Assembly: GCF_014284195.1 (NCBI RefSeq)
Contig: NZ_JACOGC010000003.1
Location: 345,156-409,155 of the forward strand
Direction of reading: 5' to 3'
Source: Cognatundibacterium griseum
GTDB taxonomy: Bacteria; Pseudomonadota; Gammaproteobacteria; Burkholderiales; Burkholderiaceae_D
Length of the DNA stretch: 64,000 nucleotides
Shown piece by piece: positions 5,228 to 56,034 of the stretch. How positions within the stretch are numbered: the first letter of the stretch is position 1; each line of letters opens with the position of its first letter. Position numbers and translations under genes: made by a program. The notes under the pieces were generated by a model. That model had not been told where the DNA came from. It did no database searches and saw only the letters and a program-made list of their open reading frames with translations.

Positions 5228-6667
5228 TCAGTCCTGAATTTTGAGCTTTTGTATCTGGTAACGCAGCTGGCGGAAACTGACGCCCAGCAAGTCCGCTGCC
5301 TGCGTCCGGTTATGGCGGGTTTTTTCCAGCGCCCGGCGAATCATCTCGCGCTCAATACTTTCCAGATAATCCGGCAGCGAGCAGGGCAATTCAGGAAACC
5401 CGAAATTTTCAGTATGTGGCGCTGCCTTTTCCCGCTCAGGCGCCGCGATGCTGGCACTGGGCACCGGAAGCGCGGGTAAACCTGGCTCCGGCATGGCGGT
5501 GACCGGTTTTCCACTTAATGCCAGGTCATCGGGCTGAATGCAGCCCTCATTTGCAAAAGCCAGCGCCCGCTCCAGAATATTTTCCAGCTCCCGGACATTG
5601 CCGGGAAAGCGATAGGCGCGTAAGGCTTCCAGCGACGCCGCCGACAAAGTCACGCTGCTTCCCGCCAGCCGCCCCAGAATTCCGGCCGCCAGCAATTCGA
5701 TATCTTCCAGCCGTTCCCGCAACGGCGGCAAATGCAGCTCAATCACATTCAGCCGGTAATACAGATCCTGACGGAAACGCCCTTCTCTGACGCACTGCGC
5801 CAGATTCTGGTGTGTGGCACTGATAATACGGACATCGACCGACTCCTCCGTCGTCGCACCGACCTTACGGATACGCCGCTCCTGAATCGCACGCAGCAGC
5901 TTCACCTGCATGGCGAGCGGCAGATCCGCCACTTCGTCCAGCATCAAGGTTCCGCCGTTCGCTGCCTGAAAAAAACCTTCGCGATCATCCATCGCACCGG
6001 TAAATGCGCCCTTACGGTAGCCGAAAAATTCGGCTTCCATCAGATTTTCCGGTATCGCTCCGCAATTGACTGCAATAAAGGGCTTGCTCATGCGCGAACT
6101 GGACATGTGAATTTCCCGCGCCGCCAATTCCTTGCCGCTGCCGGATTCGCCGGTAATGATGACCGGCGCCATACTGCGCGCCAGCCGCTCTATCTGCGTC
6201 CGTACCTGCCGCATTCCGGCCGATTGCCCGATCAGCAAGGAGGCGACGACAGACTGCGTATCTTCAGTTTTTACCTGCGGCACTGCATTAATATTGAGTG
6301 CGGAATAGACCAGCTTACGCAGATGGTCGAGCGCCACTGGTTTTGAGACGTAATCAAACGCGCCGGCTTTCAGGGCATTGACTGCATTGTCTGCACTGCC
6401 AAAAGCAGTGATCACAGCCACCGGCGTATTTTTGTAACCGGCACTGATCTCAGCCACCAGCTCCATGCCTGAGCCGTCCGGCAAACGCATGTCAGTCAGA
6501 ACCAGGGCATAGCTCTTATTTTGCAGCAACTGGCGCGCTTCAGCCAGATTTTCGGCACTATCGACATCCAGCCCCATCTTGATGAGCGTGATTTCGAGCA
6601 GCTCCCTCAGGTGAGCTTCATCATCCACCACCAGGATCCGCGGACAGGTCGCCACATTGATCGTCAT
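5228..6667 (-). CDS. pilR: Sigma-54-dependent response regulator PilR
   Basis: Response regulator of the PilS/PilR system, which with sigma-54 activates type IV pilin (pilA) transcription. The 479 residues form a receiver domain (phosphoacceptor D59 in LVLTDMRLPDG), an AAA+ domain with Walker A GESGSGKE (173-180), sigma-54 contact loop GAFTGA (220-225) and Walker B LMLDEV (about 241-246), and a C-terminal Fis-type helix-turn-helix (about 440-479) ending FRQLRYQIQKLKIQD, typical of PilR. Its start overlaps the pilS stop by 4 bp (ATGA), so the two are translationally coupled. The pilus assembly genes pilBCD are at 45-49 kb; pilA is not in the window. Confidence 0.93.
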   Translation of the reverse strand: MTINVATCPRILVVDDEAHLRELLEITLIKMGLDVDSAENLAEARQLLQNKSYALVLTDMRLPDGSGMELVAEISAGYKNTPVAVITAFGSADNAVNALKAGAFDYVSKPVALDHLRKLVYSALNINAVPQVKTEDTQSVVASLLIGQSAGMRQVRTQIERLARSMAPVIITGESGSGKELAAREIHMSSSRMSKPFIAVNCGAIPENLMEAEFFGYRKGAFTGAMDDREGFFQAANGGTLMLDEVADLPLAMQVKLLRAIQERRIRKVGATTEESVDVRIISATHQNLAQCVREGRFRQDLYYRLNVIELHLPPLRERLEDIELLAAGILGRLAGSSVTLSAASLEALRAYRFPGNVRELENILERALAFANEGCIQPDDLALSGKPVTAMPEPGLPALPVPSASIAAPEREKAAPHTENFGFPELPCSLPDYLESIEREMIRRALEKTRHNRTQAADLLGVSFRQLRYQIQKLKIQD

Positions 6668-8430
6668 GCATTCAGTCCAGAAAAATTAATCACAAACCGG
6701 CCGCTGGGTTCAGCATCAGCGGAATCAGTATCCACCCGGTATTCATAATCCAGCAGACAGTGGTTGTTCAGACACAGTTCACGCGCCATATACAGGCCCA
6801 GTCCGGTGCCCATGCGGGATGTTGTATAAAAAGGTTCAAACAGATGCGCCCTGACATCGTAACTGATTGCGGGGCCATCATCCTGAATATGCAGCTCCTG
6901 ACGCCCGTTCACGCTGATCTGCGCATACAGACGAATGCTGCCAGGCTGACCGCTGGCATAGCGCACCGCATTCGACAACAGGTTATTCACCACTTCCATT
7001 AAATGTCCCGGATCAAAACTGATCTTGAAATCAGTGTCCTCGAAAACACGGATCAGATCAGGAGCTATCCGTCTGGTTTCCGAAAAATCCTGCACGCAAT
7101 CACGCACCAGTTTCATCAGAAAATAGGGTTCGACGTCATTTTTGGCCTTACGCGACAACTTCAGGATATCTTCAATCAGCTGGTTCAGACGCGCCACATT
7201 ATCATCCACAATCTTCAGCAAACGCCTGGCCTGACCAAGGTCTCCGTCTTCCTGGCCGCGATCGGCCAGATCTTCATTGAGCAAGGACGCGGCGTATGAA
7301 ATCGAAGACAGCGGATTCCTGACTTCGTGCGCAATACTCGCCGTCAGGCGTCCCATGGATGCCAGTTTTAACTGCTGTGCCTGGTTTTCAATATCCGACA
7401 CATCCTGCATGAAAATGACGGTGTAATTATGTCCGCTCGTCTGCAAGCCGGTAACTGCCGTGTCAGTCACGATCATAAACCGCAGCTTCAGGTGCGTCAC
7501 GAAATGAGGATGATCAATGCGGCCCGGCAGGCTGGCAATGTCTCCCTCGGGACGCAAACCGGCCCTTGTTTCATCCAGATAGCAGGGGATGGATACGAAA
7601 GAAATATCCCCTTCCGGATTATTCACGGTCCGCGCGTTCTGATGCAGCTCCATGCTCATTAGCACATCCGCCATAGGACGCAGTGCAATGATATCGGTCA
7701 GCCGCGTGCCGATCATGGACTTGTCCAGATGCCCCCCGAGCATGCGTTCTGCGGCCGGATTAATCTCAAACACACAGCGATGCTGGTCAAGCACCAGAAT
7801 CCCGTCATCCATATCATTAATAACCAGATGATTGATCGCCTGCTGTAATGCCAGCTCATTGCCGCGCTGCAACGCCAGTTGTTCCTGCCGGATCAGGTTG
7901 CTGGCGAGCCGGTTCACCACGTAGACCACGGCAAAATAGGAAGCGCCGAACAGCCCCGCCTGCGACACCAGATTTCCGTCGCTCTGTTCCAGCAGGCGGT
8001 AACTGGCTTCCAGCAGCATCAGCAGGCTGACTACCGCACAAAAAAAGAATGCCCATAGCAAGGGCGCCAGAATCGAAACACCCGCCAGAGGAAACAGGAA
8101 CAGGATATGCAAACCGCCCTTGCCGCCGCCAGACCCGATATACAGCAAGGAGATGATCAGGATATCAATCGCAATCTGCGATAACAGTTGCAGGATGAAA
8201 TGCCGGGTATGCACCAGTTTCAATACTGCAAAACCGATGCTCAGGAACAGATAAACGATGCAGATGTCGCGAGCAAACAAATGGGAATAAACCCAGATAT
8301 CTTTGGTGCTGCGCAGATTCAGCAACAGCAGCAGACTGATCGCGACCATCACCCGCGAAATGTTCAGGGTCTGCAGCGAACGCCAGAATGAAGGGCTGGG
8401 GTCAGGGAAAGTGGAGAGTGGAATCAACAT
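6664..8430 (-). CDS. pilS: Membrane sensor histidine kinase PilS
   Basis: Sensor kinase that phosphorylates PilR. The 588-residue protein has several N-terminal transmembrane helices (about residues 25-145), a PAS-like region (about 200-260), the H-box SIAHEVRNPLSS with phosphorylatable H368, and a C-terminal ATPase domain with N-box LLSNAVRYA and a GTGLGLYMA G-box. Starts at ATG 8430; no strong ribosome site is seen. A PAS-proximal segment of about 80 residues (about 255-340) is somewhat longer than in Pseudomonas PilS. Lies directly after the small PP0621-type gene. Confidence 0.92.
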   Translation of the reverse strand: MLIPLSTFPDPSPSFWRSLQTLNISRVMVAISLLLLLNLRSTKDIWVYSHLFARDICIVYLFLSIGFAVLKLVHTRHFILQLLSQIAIDILIISLLYIGSGGGKGGLHILFLFPLAGVSILAPLLWAFFFCAVVSLLMLLEASYRLLEQSDGNLVSQAGLFGASYFAVVYVVNRLASNLIRQEQLALQRGNELALQQAINHLVINDMDDGILVLDQHRCVFEINPAAERMLGGHLDKSMIGTRLTDIIALRPMADVLMSMELHQNARTVNNPEGDISFVSIPCYLDETRAGLRPEGDIASLPGRIDHPHFVTHLKLRFMIVTDTAVTGLQTSGHNYTVIFMQDVSDIENQAQQLKLASMGRLTASIAHEVRNPLSSISYAASLLNEDLADRGQEDGDLGQARRLLKIVDDNVARLNQLIEDILKLSRKAKNDVEPYFLMKLVRDCVQDFSETRRIAPDLIRVFEDTDFKISFDPGHLMEVVNNLLSNAVRYASGQPGSIRLYAQISVNGRQELHIQDDGPAISYDVRAHLFEPFYTTSRMGTGLGLYMARELCLNNHCLLDYEYRVDTDSADAEPSGRFVINFSGLNA

Positions 8431-51010: not shown

Positions 51011-52570
51011 CTAGCGTTTTTTCGGAATCCCGTATTTCCTGAGTTTGCCAGCGATCATGGAATGCGAGGTTTTCAGCCTGGCGGCAAGCTTCCGGCTGGA
51101 AGGGTATTGCGGATAGAGTCGTTCCAGCAGGGATTGCTCAAACAGGTCAACTGAAGCATCCCAGTCTTCGGCCACATCAAGATTCACCTCATCGGCGCTG
51201 ATGCTGCCCTCTGCCCAATCCAGGTCTGCCGCATCCAGCACCCGCTGATCCGACATAGTGATCGCCCGGAACACCACGTTCTGCAATTGCCTTACATTGC
51301 CCGGCCAGCGGTTCGACACCAGCGCCGCGCAGGCGGAGGCATTCAGGCGGCATACGGCTTTCTGCGACTGGGTGCAGGCGCGTTCGATGAAATGCGCCGC
51401 CAGCGGCAAAATGTCATCCGGACGGTCACGCAGCGCCGGCATTTCCAGATGCAGCACATTCAGCCGGTAGAACAGATCTTCCCGGAACTGACCTTCCTGC
51501 ACCATTTTCCGCAAATTACGGTGCGTCGCACTGATGATGCGGACATTGACACTGACTTCCTTGTCGCCGCCGATACGCCGGAATTTGCCGTCATTCAGAA
51601 ACCGCAGCAGTTTTGCCTGTAAATACAGGGACATTTCGCCGATTTCGTCCAGAAACACGGTTCCACCGTCGGCCATTTCAAATAAACCCGGCTTGCCGCC
51701 GCGCTGCGCGCCGGTAAATGCGCCAGACATATAGCCAAACAATTCGCTTTCTGCCAGGCTCTCCGGCAGCGCGGCACAATTCAGCTCAAGGAACGGGGCA
51801 TTGCTACGGTTACTGGCACCGTGGCAGGCTTTTGCCAGCAGCTCTTTCCCGGTGCCGGTTTCGCCGGTAATCAGCAAAGGCGCATCCACGACGGCGACCC
51901 GTGCCGCTTTTTTCTTAAGCGAACGGATTTGTTCAGATTCGCCGATGATCAGGTCAAAGCCGCTGCCAGCCGTGTTTTGCAGCGCATGAATCCGGCCGCC
52001 GATACGTGCCGGTGCATGGAATGTCAGCACGGCACCGAGCGACTTCACCAGCAAGGCCGGTTCCGGCAGCAATGGTTCAGAAACCGGTGTGACATCCATA
52101 AAAAAAGGTTCGCCGTTCAGAATCACTTCCCGGCTGGGAATGCGGAAACTGCTACGGAGCAATTCATTCTGGATTTCGGCATCATCCAGTATCTGCGACA
52201 GACTCAGGCGGCACAGACTGGCTTCCGTCATGCCCGCCACAGCAGCAGCAGCGGCATTGGCAATCACGACGCAGCCATTGCCATCAATCGCCAGCACCGG
52301 GTCTTCCATCACCGCCATGATGGTGTCCAGATGCAGGCGGCGGCGCATGCCAGGCAAAACATCGATCACCTGAATTTCGCCTACGCCGCGCACTTGCTGA
52401 CAGTCCTGCCGCAATTCCGGCAGCATGTATTCGAGCAGATCCGGACTATCGATATAAATCTGTGGCGGATCCACTTCGACCGCCACCACATTCAGGCCCC
52501 GCTTCGCGAGTACGGCCAGAATCTCATGCGCAATACCAACCCGGTCCCTGAACTGTATATTGATGCGCAT
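51011..52570 (-). CDS. TyrR/PhhR-family sigma-54-dependent activator
   Basis: A 519-residue regulator: ACT domain (1-70) for aromatic amino acid sensing, PAS domain (about 80-190), AAA+ domain with Walker A GETGTGKE (236-243), the sigma-54 contact loop GAFTGA (283-288, present here but missing in E. coli TyrR), Walker B GTVFLDEIGEM, and a C-terminal TyrR-type helix-turn-helix (about 490-519, SSRKLAARLKTSHSMIAGKLR). It resembles Pseudomonas PhhR. It is the last gene of the alr-dadA operon, whose leader has a sigma-54 promoter and TyrR-type boxes, so it probably activates its own operon. Confidence 0.92.
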   Translation of the reverse strand: MRINIQFRDRVGIAHEILAVLAKRGLNVVAVEVDPPQIYIDSPDLLEYMLPELRQDCQQVRGVGEIQVIDVLPGMRRRLHLDTIMAVMEDPVLAIDGNGCVVIANAAAAAVAGMTEASLCRLSLSQILDDAEIQNELLRSSFRIPSREVILNGEPFFMDVTPVSEPLLPEPALLVKSLGAVLTFHAPARIGGRIHALQNTAGSGFDLIIGESEQIRSLKKKAARVAVVDAPLLITGETGTGKELLAKACHGASNRSNAPFLELNCAALPESLAESELFGYMSGAFTGAQRGGKPGLFEMADGGTVFLDEIGEMSLYLQAKLLRFLNDGKFRRIGGDKEVSVNVRIISATHRNLRKMVQEGQFREDLFYRLNVLHLEMPALRDRPDDILPLAAHFIERACTQSQKAVCRLNASACAALVSNRWPGNVRQLQNVVFRAITMSDQRVLDAADLDWAEGSISADEVNLDVAEDWDASVDLFEQSLLERLYPQYPSSRKLAARLKTSHSMIAGKLRKYGIPKKR

Positions 52571-52587
52571 TGAGGAAGAGAGAAATA

Positions 52588-53148
52588 TTAATAAGGTTCG
52601 GGGATATACACACGTGGCCGCGCGTGCTGGCTGCGGAAGCCGGCAGCCGTTGCCAGTCCGCGCAAACGGCTCAGATCAAACTGCTCCAGCTGCTGTACCA
52701 CGGCGCGGTTCACGGTCATTTTAACCTGCATCATGAGCAGATCCACGCTTTGCTGGCTGCTGCTGCGGGAGGGAGAGGCCTGTTCATCAGTCGCTTCTGC
52801 ACTATCTGCGGTCTGTGCAGCGGCTTTCAGCGCGGCACGCTCTTCAGCTTCCACGAAACAGCGATACACGTCGGCCAGCGTGATGACGCCGTTGCAGTCA
52901 CGGCAATGCCAGGCATCTTTTTCCTTGGCGTCACGACCGACCAGACCATCCTTGCTCAGGGTCGACAAAATAGAACGGATCATGCGTGGCGTCTGGCCGG
53001 TGGCCTGCTGCAGGCCGGCGACCGTGGTGGCACGTGGCATGACCACCATGATCTGCGCCAGCAATTCGATCGCCGTATAAAAACGGGTATTCAGATTGCT
53101 GTCAGCAAACACTTGGGTGGAGGACAGTAATTGTTCAAACTGGCTCAT
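52588..53148 (-). CDS. Putative winged-helix regulator (Rrf2-like), unassigned
   Basis: A 186-residue protein with a winged-helix region (about residues 25-95): [53 protein letters not shown], the last resembling Rrf2 proteins. A single CRDC pair (about C82/C85) follows in the wing. A Ser/Gln-rich linker and a helical C-terminus complete it. It overlaps dadA by 4 bp (ATGA) and lies 17 bp before tyrR. Likely a second regulator of the operon; family membership is uncertain. Confidence 0.65.
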
Positions 53149-54437
53149 GCCAACTCCCTCGAAATAATGATAGGACGATTCACGCTGCCATAGCGATCCA
53201 TATACAGTCCCTCTGTCGAAATCGCGGGCCTCTTACCCGAAACGATGTCGGCAATAAACTGTCCGGAACCGCAAGCCATGGTCCAGCCCAGCGTACCGTG
53301 CCCGGTATTGAGGAACAGATTGCGATACGGTGTCGGCCCGATGACCGGGGTGCCATCCGGCGTCATCGGGCGCAAGCCGGTCCAGAATTCAGCTTTGGCG
53401 ACGTCGCCGCCACCCGGGAATAAATCTGTGACTGAAAATTCCAGCGTATCCCGCCGGTCACGCCGCAATTCGAGGTTATAACCGGTGATCTCAGCGGTAC
53501 CGCCAACCCGGATGCGGTCGCCCAGACGGGTGATTGCCACCTTGTAGGTTTCATCCATGACGGTCGATTCCGGCGCGCGGCTGGCATCGGTGATCGGCAC
53601 GGTGATCGAATAACCTTTGATCGGATATACCGGAATCCGGATGCCCAATTCACGCAGCATGATGGGAGAATAGCTGCCCAGCGCCAGCACATAGCTGTCT
53701 GCCTTGAATTCACCGGCAGAGGTCATGACTGAAGTAATCTGATCCCCTTCCTTCACCAGGCGTTCAATGCTGACGCCGTAGCGGAACTGCGCGCCCAGAC
53801 CCTCTGCCAGCTTCGCCAGATTCTGGGTGAATTTAAAGCAGTCGCCGGTCTCGTCTCCTGGCAGACGCAATGCGCCGACGAATTTTTCCTGCACGTTTGC
53901 CAGCGCCGGTTCCACCTGCAGGCAACCCGCCTTGTCCAGTTTTTCGTATGGCACATCGTAACGCTTCAGAATGGCGATATCAGCCTCTGCGGCATCGAGC
54001 TGCGCCTGATTGCGGAACAGTTGCAGGGTGCCCTGCATCCGTTCGTCGTAATGGATACCGGTATCCGCACGCAATTGCTGCAAGACGTCGCGGCTGTATT
54101 CTGCCATGCGCAGCATCCGGCCTTTGTTCACTTCATAGCGGGCGGAAGTGCAGTTCATCAGCATCTGCATGACCCAGCGCCAAGTGTTCAGGTCAAAAGT
54201 GGGGCTGATTGCCAGCGGGCTGTGTTTCATCATCAGCCATTTAATGGCCTTTAACGGCACGCCGGGACCCGCCCAGGGTGCCGAGTAACCGGGAGAGACC
54301 TCGCCGGCATTGGCATAGCTGGTTTCCAGCGCCGGTGCGGGCTGACGCTCGATCACGGTGACTTCGTGACCGGCTTTTGCCAGAAAATATGCAGAGGCGG
54401 TACCAATAACGCCTGCTCCGAGAATGACGACTTTCAT
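53145..54437 (-). CDS. dadA: D-amino acid dehydrogenase, small subunit DadA
   Basis: FAD enzyme that oxidises D-amino acids (chiefly D-alanine) to keto acids and ammonia, passing electrons to the respiratory chain. The 430 residues begin with the dinucleotide fold [19 protein letters not shown], have the DadA segment [22 protein letters not shown] (split), and the C-terminal [20 protein letters not shown] flavin segment. It overlaps alr and the regulator gene by 4 bp each, so translation is coupled. Alr supplies D-alanine from L-alanine. Confidence 0.95.
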
Positions 54438-55636
54438 GCTGAGACTCCTTGACTGCCCATCAGTGCGGGGGTGAATTCTTCTTGATTAGTATTGCCTGCT
54501 GCCTGCCCGGCCCAGGTACCGGCGGCCGTGGCATCATTCATGTAATGACGCTGATAACGGGCACCGAGACTGGTCAGAATTTCATAACCGATCGTGCCTG
54601 CCTTCTCAGCAATCTGATCGACCGTATTGGTCGCTGAAATGAGGTCAACCAGCGCACCGGGGTACAGATCGGCCTCAGCGACCCCGGTCACATCCAGCGT
54701 GATCGTGTCCATGGAAACCTTGCCCACCATCGGTGCCGCCTGCCCCGCGATATGCGCGACGCCGCAATTACTGAGACTGCGCAGCCAGCCATCAGCATAG
54801 CCCACAGCCACGGTCGCAATGCGGCTGACCCGCGTGCTGCGCCAGGTCGCACCGTAGCCGACGCTGGTATTGGCCGGGATTTCGCGGGTCTGGATAATGC
54901 GTCCCTGCAGATACGCAACCGCCTTCATCGGATTGGCCTGACCGGCAACCGGCGCCACGCCGTACAAGGCAGCACCGGGGCGCGCCAGATCAAAATGAAA
55001 ATCTGGTCCCAGGAAAATACCGGAAGAATTTGCCAGACTGCCCTTGGCGCCGGGGAATAACTGACGCAACAGGCGGAACTGATCGAGCTGCTGCCGGTTC
55101 ATCGGATTGGCCTGATCTTCCGCGCAGGCCAGATGACTCATCACATGCGAGACGGCAATTCCATCTAACATACTGGAGTCTTGTTTCAGCTGCGCCACTT
55201 CAGCCGCAGACAATCCCATGCGCGCCATGCCGGTATCGATCTGCACAATCGCTGGCAATGCCCGCTGCTCCTGCTGCGCCAGCCGTTGCCAGGCCCGTAT
55301 CTGCGGCAGACTGTTCAATACCGGTGTGCACTGATACGCCAGAAAATCAGCTTCGCAACCGACTGGAGAGCCGTGCATCACGATAATCTGGGCGGCTTGC
55401 TGCAAATGCGGACGCAAGGCAATGCCTTCTTCCAGATGCGCGACAAAAAAATGCCGGCACCCTTCTGCATACAGCGCCAGAGCGACTCTTTCCGCTCCCA
55501 GTCCATAAGCATCCGCCTTGACCGCAGCACCGCAGACTGCGGTACCCAGCCGATTCCGGAGCAAACGGTAGTTATCGCGCACTGCCTGCAAGTCGATATG
55601 CAGTACAGCGCCGGCTCTTGCTTCTATGTGTTGCAT
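54434..55636 (-). CDS. alr: Alanine racemase (catabolic DadX-type)
   Basis: PLP enzyme interconverting L- and D-alanine. The 400-residue protein has the PLP Lys motif [10 protein letters not shown] (about K40), the second catalytic Tyr in SVGYGATW (about Y269), and [10 protein letters not shown]. Its fusion into an operon with dadA points to the degradative (DadX) role rather than only wall synthesis. ATG 55636 has GGAG ten bases upstream. It is transcribed from a sigma-54 promoter at 55682-55697. Confidence 0.94.
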
Positions 55637-55681
55637 AGTGTTTGCACTCCATTACTTCAGAGAAATGAGATATTCACTCTT

Positions 55682-55697
55682 AGCAATGCCTGTGCCA
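55682..55697 (-). promoter_or_regulatory. Sigma-54 promoter of alr-dadA-regulator-tyrR
   Basis: Minus strand TGGCAC-AGGCA-TTGCT: full match to the -24/-12 consensus (TGGCAC-N5-TTGCW), with GG-N10-GC spacing. Start predicted near 55671, giving a leader of about 35 nt with GGAG. Confidence 0.85.
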
Positions 55698-55761
55698 TCT
55701 GTCGTTATCACAATAATTCAAGGACTTAACCACGGTGTCGGTATGACACCCTGATACTGAA

Positions 55762-55779
55762 TGTATACTTTTCAATACA
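55762..55779. promoter_or_regulatory. TyrR-type box 1
   Basis: TGTA-N10-TACA (TGTATACTTTTCAATACA), the symmetric core of TyrR/PhhR sites (TGTAAA-N6-TTTACA). About 100 bp upstream of the predicted sigma-54 start, normal for an enhancer site. Confidence 0.65.
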
Positions 55780-55844
55780 CCTGATGCCGTAAAACGGATG
55801 ACCACATCTCATCACCAGTCTTAAGTGTACTCAAACAATGACGG

Positions 55845-55862
55845 TGTACAATAAAAAATACA
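55845..55862. promoter_or_regulatory. TyrR-type box 2
   Basis: TGTA-N10-TACA (TGTACAATAAAAAATACA), extended to an 8-bp inverted repeat ACGGTGTA/TACACCGT (55841-55866). About 180 bp upstream of the start. Confidence 0.7.
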
Positions 55863-55863
55863 C

Positions 55864-55881
55864 CGTACTAATTTCAATACA
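55864..55881. promoter_or_regulatory. TyrR-type box 3 (one mismatch)
   Basis: CGTA-N10-TACA, adjacent to box 2 with centres 19 bp apart. It shares TTTCAATACACC (55872-55883) with box 1 (55770-55781). Confidence 0.5.
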
Positions 55882-56007: not shown

Positions 56008-56034
56008 AAAAAACGGCATGGTTATGCCGTTTTT
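56008..56034 (-). terminator. Terminator of argJ-DUF815-mutT
   Basis: AAAAAACGGCAT (56008-56019), loop GGTT, ATGCCGTTTTT (56024-56034). On the minus strand the stem is followed by six U. Confidence 0.93.

Follow-up and report, generated by a model that had tools for sequence, protein, structure and literature searches.

The closest described counterpart of the locus considered here comes from Azospirillum brasilense Sp7, where, according to a 2019 study, dadA mRNA and growth with D-alanine as carbon source both require TyrR (PMC6375630). The available excerpts of that paper describe divergent tyrR and dadA genes with a -12/-24 promoter and three TyrR boxes in the intervening gap, argue for sigma-54 dependence from sequence, leave undecided whether D-alanine is the ligand of TyrR, and state that the TyrR proteins of E. 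coli and E. cloacae lack a GAFTGA motif (PMC6375630). Excerpts of other papers describe GcsR of Pseudomonas aeruginosa, a glycine-responsive regulator that requires RpoN and has three 18-bp binding sites (PMC4894688), the control of Pseudomonas dad genes by DadR, an activator of the AsnC type (PMC9714295), and a regulon survey in which TyrR is conserved in gammaproteobacterial groups and absent from the other classes of its set (PMC5343134). Here we analyse alr-dadA-orf186-tyrR, a group of genes for an alanine racemase, a D-amino acid dehydrogenase, an Rrf2-like protein and a TyrR-family regulator, in a 64,000-nucleotide stretch of the Cognatundibacterium griseum contig NZ_JACOGC010000003.1 (positions 345,156 to 409,155; hereafter the window).

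We consider it quite probable that alr-dadA-orf186-tyrR is an alanine-catabolic operon under its own activator, combining a sigma-54 promoter, TyrR, DNA looping assisted by integration host factor (IHF) and a small amino acid as ligand. Sigma-54 control by a TyrR-family activator encoded in the operon, as the initial annotation had proposed, is strongly indicated by the conservation of the leader. Successive genes overlap by 4 bp at alr/dadA and at dadA/orf186, and a 17-bp gap separates orf186 from tyrR. Among 36 genomes of the same genus, 33 carry a full-length tyrR, one has a fragment at a contig edge, and no close match was obtained for the remaining two, which are 65% and 89% complete. The 34 loci retrieved show alr-dadA-(orf186)-tyrR as a contiguous unit in 32 cases, the other two being interrupted by contig ends; the comparison of leaders covers 31, three of the loci being without a usable alr start.

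The sigma-54 promoter of the alr leader is the sole perfect match to TGGCACR-N4-TTGCW in the 64 kb, where one further match has a mismatch. Across the 3.6-Mb genome, TGGCAYR-N4-TTGCW has 10 perfect sites against 0 for the reversed control pattern. A site with at most one mismatch is kept in all 31 same-genus leaders, which are related and hence not independent, compared with 30 of 3100 shuffled leaders; 17 of these sites are exact, 13 read TGGCAT instead of TGGCAC and one has an altered final base. From the predicted transcription start, we infer an alr leader of about 35 nt before the ATG. The genome encodes rpoN, together with six further matches to the AAA+ part of TyrR that are likely other sigma-54 activators.

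Upstream of the promoter are three boxes of the TGTA-N10-TACA type, two of them perfect and one with a mismatch, whose centres at about -100, -182 and -201 relative to the predicted start agree with the positions first assigned to them. Boxes 2 and 3 are the only perfect boxes in the window. One-mismatch boxes number 11 window-wide against a shuffled mean of 7.6, a total reached by 11 of 100 shuffles and thus at chance, so that the evidence for the boxes is their clustering and conservation. Allowing one mismatch per box, the 19-bp pair formed by boxes 1 and 2 is present in 26 of the 31 real leaders and in 0 of 3100 shuffled ones; allowing two, the counts are 31 of 31 and 48 of 3100. The pair (up to two mismatches per box) and box 3 (up to one) stand in register in 29 of the 31. 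A degenerate fourth box (up to two mismatches) occurs at register +19 in 18 of 29 leaders, compared with 0 or 1 leader at each of 15 other registers; like the IHF-like site and the probable terminator described below, it was absent from the initial annotation. Promoter, boxes and gene order, whose conservation in relatives the initial annotation had proposed to check, are retained in all or nearly all of the same-genus loci compared.

Genome-wide, we found 18 perfect boxes, below the 34 of the reversed control. Fifteen of these loci were retrieved, and the 13 lying outside the leader have no sigma-54 site (at most one mismatch) within 1.5 kb; the remaining three of the 18 are, by their coordinates, more than 1 kb from any perfect sigma-54 site. 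Since only the two leader boxes among the 15 loci are accompanied by such a site, TyrR is probably a local regulator. A regulon beyond the operon was considered and rejected, as perfect boxes are rarer than in the control and the sigma-54 site is absent at all 13 other retrieved loci.

Between box 3 and the promoter is an IHF-like site. The consensus for IHF binding is YAANNNNTTGATW, and matches with at most one mismatch occur in 30 of the 31 leaders (9 exact), mostly as TAAGT-N2-TTGAAT or TTGATT. Because the consensus is loose, the argument for the site is its constant position: in 19 leaders the distance from its start to the downstream promoter is 31-33 bp, in 10 leaders 41-42 bp and in a single one 26 bp, and box 3 is about 48-55 bp away. 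Boxes 2 and 3 are 79-84 bp apart in the same-genus leaders, and box 3 is 79-83 bp from the promoter in one set of leaders and 90-92 bp in another. The two sets differ by about one DNA turn, which suggests helical phasing. Three genes of the HU/IHF family are encoded in the genome. Several observations weigh against the full arrangement: 1497 of 9300 shuffled 75-mers (16%) contain an IHF-like match somewhere, the leader of genome G014 is without the box pair in register, and that of G009 is without the pair in register, box 3 and the IHF-like match.

Table 1. Features of the alr-dadA-orf186-tyrR operon and its leader (positions in the window)
Feature	Position	Strand	Basis
tyrR, ACT-PAS-AAA+-HTH enhancer-binding protein, GcsR/dadA-linked TyrR clade	51011-52570	minus	domains and tree
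GAFTGA loop codons (sigma-54 contact), TyrR residues 283-288	51707-51724	minus	
orf186, Rrf2-like winged-helix protein	52588-53148	minus	weak PF02082
dadA, D-amino acid dehydrogenase	53145-54437	minus	NF001933, 703 bits
alr, alanine racemase, first operon gene	54434-55636	minus	PF01168/PF00842; TIGR00492, 244.8 bits
Predicted transcription start, 12 bases past the GC element	about 55671	minus	promoter geometry
Sigma-54 promoter, TGGCACAGGCATTGCT	55682-55697	minus	perfect TGGCACR-N4-TTGCW (GG at -24, GC at -12)
IHF-like site, TAAGTCCTTGAAT, between box 3 and promoter	55716-55728	minus	at most one mismatch to YAANNNNTTGATW
Box 3, TGTATTGAAAAGTATACA	55762-55779	minus	perfect TGTA-N10-TACA
Degenerate fourth box, CGTCATTGTTTGAGTACA, 19 bp past box 2	55826-55843	minus	
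Box 2, TGTATTTTTTATTGTACA	55845-55862	minus	perfect TGTA-N10-TACA
Box 1, TGTATTGAAATTAGTACG	55864-55881	minus	TGTA-N10-TACA with one mismatch
Probable intrinsic terminator 3' of mutT, ACGGCAT-AACC-ATGCCGT and T run	56008-56034	minus	read by eye

Taken together, the layout suggests a mechanism in which TyrR dimers, about 100-200 bp upstream of the start, would occupy box 1, box 2 (with the weak fourth box) and box 3, and IHF would introduce a bend between box 3 and the promoter. Through its GAFTGA loop, the TyrR AAA+ ring could then remodel the sigma-54 RNA polymerase at the -12/-24 site. The resulting transcript would supply two enzymes, Alr for the conversion of L-alanine to D-alanine and DadA for that of D-alanine to pyruvate and ammonia, together with Orf186; as it would also encode TyrR, the circuit would feed back positively on itself. 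The ACT-PAS region at the N-terminus of TyrR most likely senses a small amino acid (D-alanine, L-alanine or glycine) and not an aromatic one. What is read from sequence comprises the genes, the promoter, the boxes and the IHF-like site, how these are conserved and spaced, and the clade of the regulator; binding, looping, sigma-54 dependence, ligand and autoregulation are inferred.

The operon may also bear on the supply of D-alanine to the cell wall. Its alr is the sole TIGR00492 match in the genome of the window, and exactly one match was found in 21 of 23 same-genus genomes (in 20 of the 21 it is the operon alr, and in the other a contig-edge fragment); the two genomes without a match are 65% and 83% complete. 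The 20 same-genus operon alr genes score 229-259 bits against this model and the dad-linked alr of genome G146 scores 245.8 bits, while the best match in each of 14 genomes that represent other families of the order reaches 318-397 bits. A canonical racemase gene may have been lost in this genus. As the operon alr is the only racemase of its family that we found, cell-wall D-alanine may depend on the sigma-54 promoter, provided that no other source of D-alanine is at work. Weighing against this, a gene resembling D-amino-acid aminotransferase (244-270 bits, below the cut-off of 277) is present in 18 of the 23 genomes, that of the window included, and could be a second source of D-alanine, which would weaken the single-racemase reading. 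Genomes G002, G008, G009, G010 and G017 have only weak matches to D-amino-acid aminotransferase.

A dependence of this kind might be relieved by a basal sigma-70 promoter overlapped by boxes 1 and 2, which would provide D-alanine for the wall and which TyrR would repress in switching to the sigma-54 start. Such a promoter would suit an operon that holds the sole alr found and is separated by a probable terminator from mutT, and a TTGAAA-18-TATTGT match at 55877-55848 does overlap boxes 1 and 2. However, this match agrees at 9 of 12 positions, a score for which 1 match was found and 1.1 were expected by chance, and it falls in sequence that is conserved for the boxes. A sigma-70 promoter scan of the leader gave none that was prominent. 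We regard a basal promoter as possible but doubtful; it is in any case compatible with, and additional to, control by sigma-54 and TyrR. The probable terminator, 3' of the upstream gene mutT, likely isolates the operon from transcription further upstream. It is not among the sites given by a terminator scan, which returned terminator-like sites at 55979-55956 and 55866-55841, the latter overlapping boxes 1 and 2.

Leaders outside the genus show a comparable design. Boxes with 0-2 mismatches and a sigma-54-like site with 0-2 mismatches precede dadA, alr or agcS in Azospirillum (two records), Azoarcus, Thauera, Caenispirillum and the genomes G146 and G589, the last from another class. The distance from box 3 to the promoter is 71 bp in Azospirillum and Caenispirillum, 68 bp in G589 and 79-81 bp in Azoarcus, Thauera and G146. 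IHF-like matches at -31 or -32 were found in Azoarcus and G589 (one mismatch) and in Thauera and G146 (two mismatches). Two negatives tell against a general arrangement: the Azospirillum and Caenispirillum leaders examined gave no IHF-like match, and the relative L185, a neighbour of agcS, has two boxes and no sigma-54 site with at most one mismatch.

In 18 of 21 leaders of Pseudomonas-type gcvH genes (12/14 and 6/7), the boxes stand at about -182, -163 and -82 relative to a sigma-54-like site; L048 (without box 1), L056 (pair displaced) and L184 (without box 3) are the exceptions. An IHF-like site is present at -32 in 18 of the 21 as well (11/14 and 7/7). Most of the gcvH promoter sites read TGGCCGC-N4-TTGCT, two mismatches off the consensus, and they are weaker than the same-genus sites. 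The strict consensus with up to two mismatches gave sites in 3 of 13 gcvH loci, among them L048, in which the gene start of the others could not be located; a relaxed pattern, in which GG and GC are fixed and the other positions may carry two mismatches, was found in 14/14 and 7/7 loci, compared with 39 of 2100 shuffled leaders.

We also observed that in Azoarcus sp. KH32C (L206) and G146 (L172) alr, a permease or agcS carrier gene, dadA and, in KH32C, RidA form one unit divergent from tyrR; these gene sets indicate that the alanine module takes in genes for transport and imine clearance. On the plasmid record LT969519.1 (L207), a GcsR-side TyrR (49.9% identical) is encoded near gcvH-gcvP and genes for an aminotransferase and an aldehyde dehydrogenase.

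The regulator of the window has an ACT-PAS-AAA+-HTH_50 architecture. Its AAA+ domain (PF00158, 234 bits) includes the Walker A sequence GETGTGKE as well as GAFTGA, its N-terminal 164 residues match PDB entry 2jhe, and its ACT and PAS domains score slightly below the Pfam cut-offs (25.9 of 27 and 21.9 of 22.6). Phylogenetic analysis of 61 rows, comprising 12 of the 33 same-genus TyrRs and omitting 17 near-duplicate or distant other loci, grouped GcsR-type proteins, represented by gcv-linked Pseudomonas sequences, with alanine-linked TyrRs (support 98/96), the window TyrR being inside this group. PhhR and enterobacterial TyrR fell on a separate branch (support 98/99). The alanine-linked members are TyrRs of Azospirillum, Azoarcus, Thauera and Caenispirillum encoded beside dadA, alr or an agcS carrier gene. 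Thus, of the initial description of the last gene as a TyrR/PhhR-type activator with GAFTGA, the TyrR family and the GAFTGA loop stand, and the PhhR type gives way to the tree; phhA, moreover, sits on another contig. Nor does the gene have a GcsR neighbourhood, as it adjoins alr and dadA and not a glycine cleavage operon. The finer placement is less sure, since the alanine-linked subgroup alone is supported only at 82/85. This support weighs against a firm assignment of the ligand, as do locus L173, which falls inside the subgroup and adjoins an indolepyruvate oxidoreductase gene, and the agcS-linked L185, which is placed on the GcsR side.

TyrR matches are sparse in wider surveys. At E <= 1e-110, 46 of 398 genomes across the phylum have one; at E <= 1e-100, 6 of 399 genomes of the order do, three of them from this genus, in a survey that scored just three first-look candidates per genome. 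Same-family genomes of other genera gave 0 of 10 at E <= 1e-100. The rarity of tyrR among relatives makes transfer or loss likely in its history.

Because TyrR clusters with GcsR and the dadA-linked TyrRs, its signal is more likely to be alanine or glycine than an aromatic amino acid. The contrary proposal, that TyrR is a PhhR-type aromatic sensor coupling alanine catabolism to phenylalanine and tyrosine, can draw on membership in the NCBIfam TyrR family, although the match to equivalog NF008085 is 471.9 bits and under the cut-off of 576, on L173, and on a box with one mismatch that precedes hpd-phhA by 71-88 bp in this genome (locus L171, 3539-3556). This near-box counts against a purely alanine- or glycine-responsive regulator and makes an aromatic role for TyrR conceivable; no sigma-54 site was found at the hpd-phhA locus. 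The aromatic proposal is opposed by the tree and by identity to the window TyrR, which is 41-44% for 12 of 12 phhA-linked loci compared with 52-58% for alanine- or gcv-linked ones, save the distant L073 (33%). Arg10 and Asp103 of E. coli TyrR presumably bind ligand. The residue aligned to Arg10 is conserved in the window TyrR, in favour of aromatic sensing, and that aligned to Asp103 is valine in 17 of 18 same-genus rows and methionine in 1 of 18. The latter is a weak point against it, as Asp occurs in just 1 of the 37 rows of an alignment that held no Pseudomonas PhhR row. Being absent from every GAFTGA or GAFSGA row of this alignment, Asp103 is uninformative and was rejected as a marker of aromatic sensing. 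The excerpts of the Azospirillum study name ligand-linked residues only as D and R (PMC6375630). On balance we judge an aromatic sensor improbable, and the link to aromatic amino acids drawn in the initial annotation comes down to the hpd-phhA near-box and L173.

The suggested link to nitrogen status fares worse. An activator other than TyrR, for example NtrC, might be the main driver of the sigma-54 promoter, and the six other AAA+ matches offer candidates for this. However, the conserved upstream elements are TyrR-type boxes, and NtrC palindromes (up to three mismatches) are at chance in the window, with 126 found and 142 expected. The nearest matches, at 55619-55635 and 55643-55659, have three mismatches and are downstream of the promoter. 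We therefore rejected an NtrC site in the leader and consider such control very unlikely. Finally, that the promoter and box motifs are themselves chance matches, as the window-wide number of one-mismatch boxes might suggest, is effectively refuted by the conservation of the layout outside the genus, with similar geometry in Azoarcus, Azospirillum and Pseudomonas, and by the absence of the one-mismatch 19-bp pair from all shuffled leaders.

The product of orf186 is perhaps an auxiliary regulator, as judged from profile and structure comparisons. It matches Rrf2 (PF02082) at 18.2 bits, under the cut-off of 30, and 31 of 38 homologues match at E <= 0.1 (best 1.5e-5). The structure model has a predicted local distance difference test (pLDDT) score of 70.5, better over residues 11-110, and its best PDB match is the Rrf2-family entry 1ylf, at a modest level (best E 6.3e-4, template modelling scores 0.37/0.56). 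We found 59 database proteins, whose named sources are Undibacterium, 'Burkholderiales bacterium' and 'soil metagenome', many rows having no name. The gene is present in 21 of the 36 same-genus genomes, compared with 0 of 24 genomes of other families, and is missing from 11 of the 32 same-genus loci that show the operon order. A CxxC pair varies among the homologues, and genome G004 has a second copy that is 47% identical.

Elsewhere in the window, at 5228-8430 on the minus strand, we identified a two-component pair of a histidine kinase (6664-8430) and a GAFTGA response regulator (5228-6667). The latter is predicted to be a second sigma-54 activator in the window. We take the pair to be PilS/PilR-like; no NCBIfam equivalog scored above its cut-off.

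We tentatively speculate, with more doubt than confidence, that one activator lineage keeps an almost unchanged enhancer grammar (a 19-bp box pair, a third box about 81 bp on, an IHF-like bend and about 81 bp to the sigma-54 site, with insertions and deletions mostly close to whole DNA turns), and that its target has changed between alanine catabolism and glycine cleavage. The Undibacterium operon would have taken over the only alanine racemase of the cell; RpoN and TyrR would then be required for the D-alanine of peptidoglycan and become conditionally essential, and orf186 would be a lineage-specific brake or co-sensor. More broadly, the analysis suggests that sigma-54/TyrR control of D-alanine breakdown, of which we know one earlier study, in Azospirillum, is a module present in alpha- and betaproteobacteria whose enhancer layout is common with GcsR. 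It also corrects the likely signal of a protein otherwise annotated as an aromatic 'TyrR', by placing it in the alanine/glycine branch. Cell-wall synthesis would be fed by a catabolic promoter that depends on an activator, should the operon alr indeed be the only racemase.

Compared with the known systems, the wiring is not new, contrary to what was first claimed, because the 2019 study of A. brasilense already reported that dadA mRNA depends on TyrR, in a setting of three boxes and a -12/-24 promoter (PMC6375630). What is new is the position of the regulator inside the operon, together with the genus-restricted Rrf2-like orf186, a form found in no open-licence PubMed Central (PMC) paper searched; searches of that literature yielded no paper that deals with a dad operon of Undibacterium or treats alr-dadA-tyrR as a single unit. 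As far as the excerpts describe it, the Azospirillum system shares with the window a GAFTGA-bearing TyrR adjoining dadA, three boxes and the -12/-24 promoter. A. lipoferum 4B and Azospirillum sp. B510 encode a 60%-identical TyrR divergent from dadA with a comparable leader layout. Unlike in the window, tyrR is divergent from dadA in Azospirillum, and in the two records its sigma-54 sites have one or two mismatches and neither alr nor orf186 was seen beside tyrR. PhhR of Pseudomonas and TyrR of enterobacteria have the same domain order and box type as the window TyrR, but they form another well-supported branch, and phhR genes adjoin phhA. The Pseudomonas dad operon shares DadA and an alanine racemase with the operon described here, whereas its activator, in the excerpted account, is of a different family, the AsnC type. 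GcsR is related to the window TyrR through the gcv-linked Pseudomonas proteins of the same clade and, in the excerpts available, resembles it in its three 18-bp sites and RpoN promoter, but differs in its glycine cleavage target, its glycine inducer and the location of gcsR beside rather than inside the operon.

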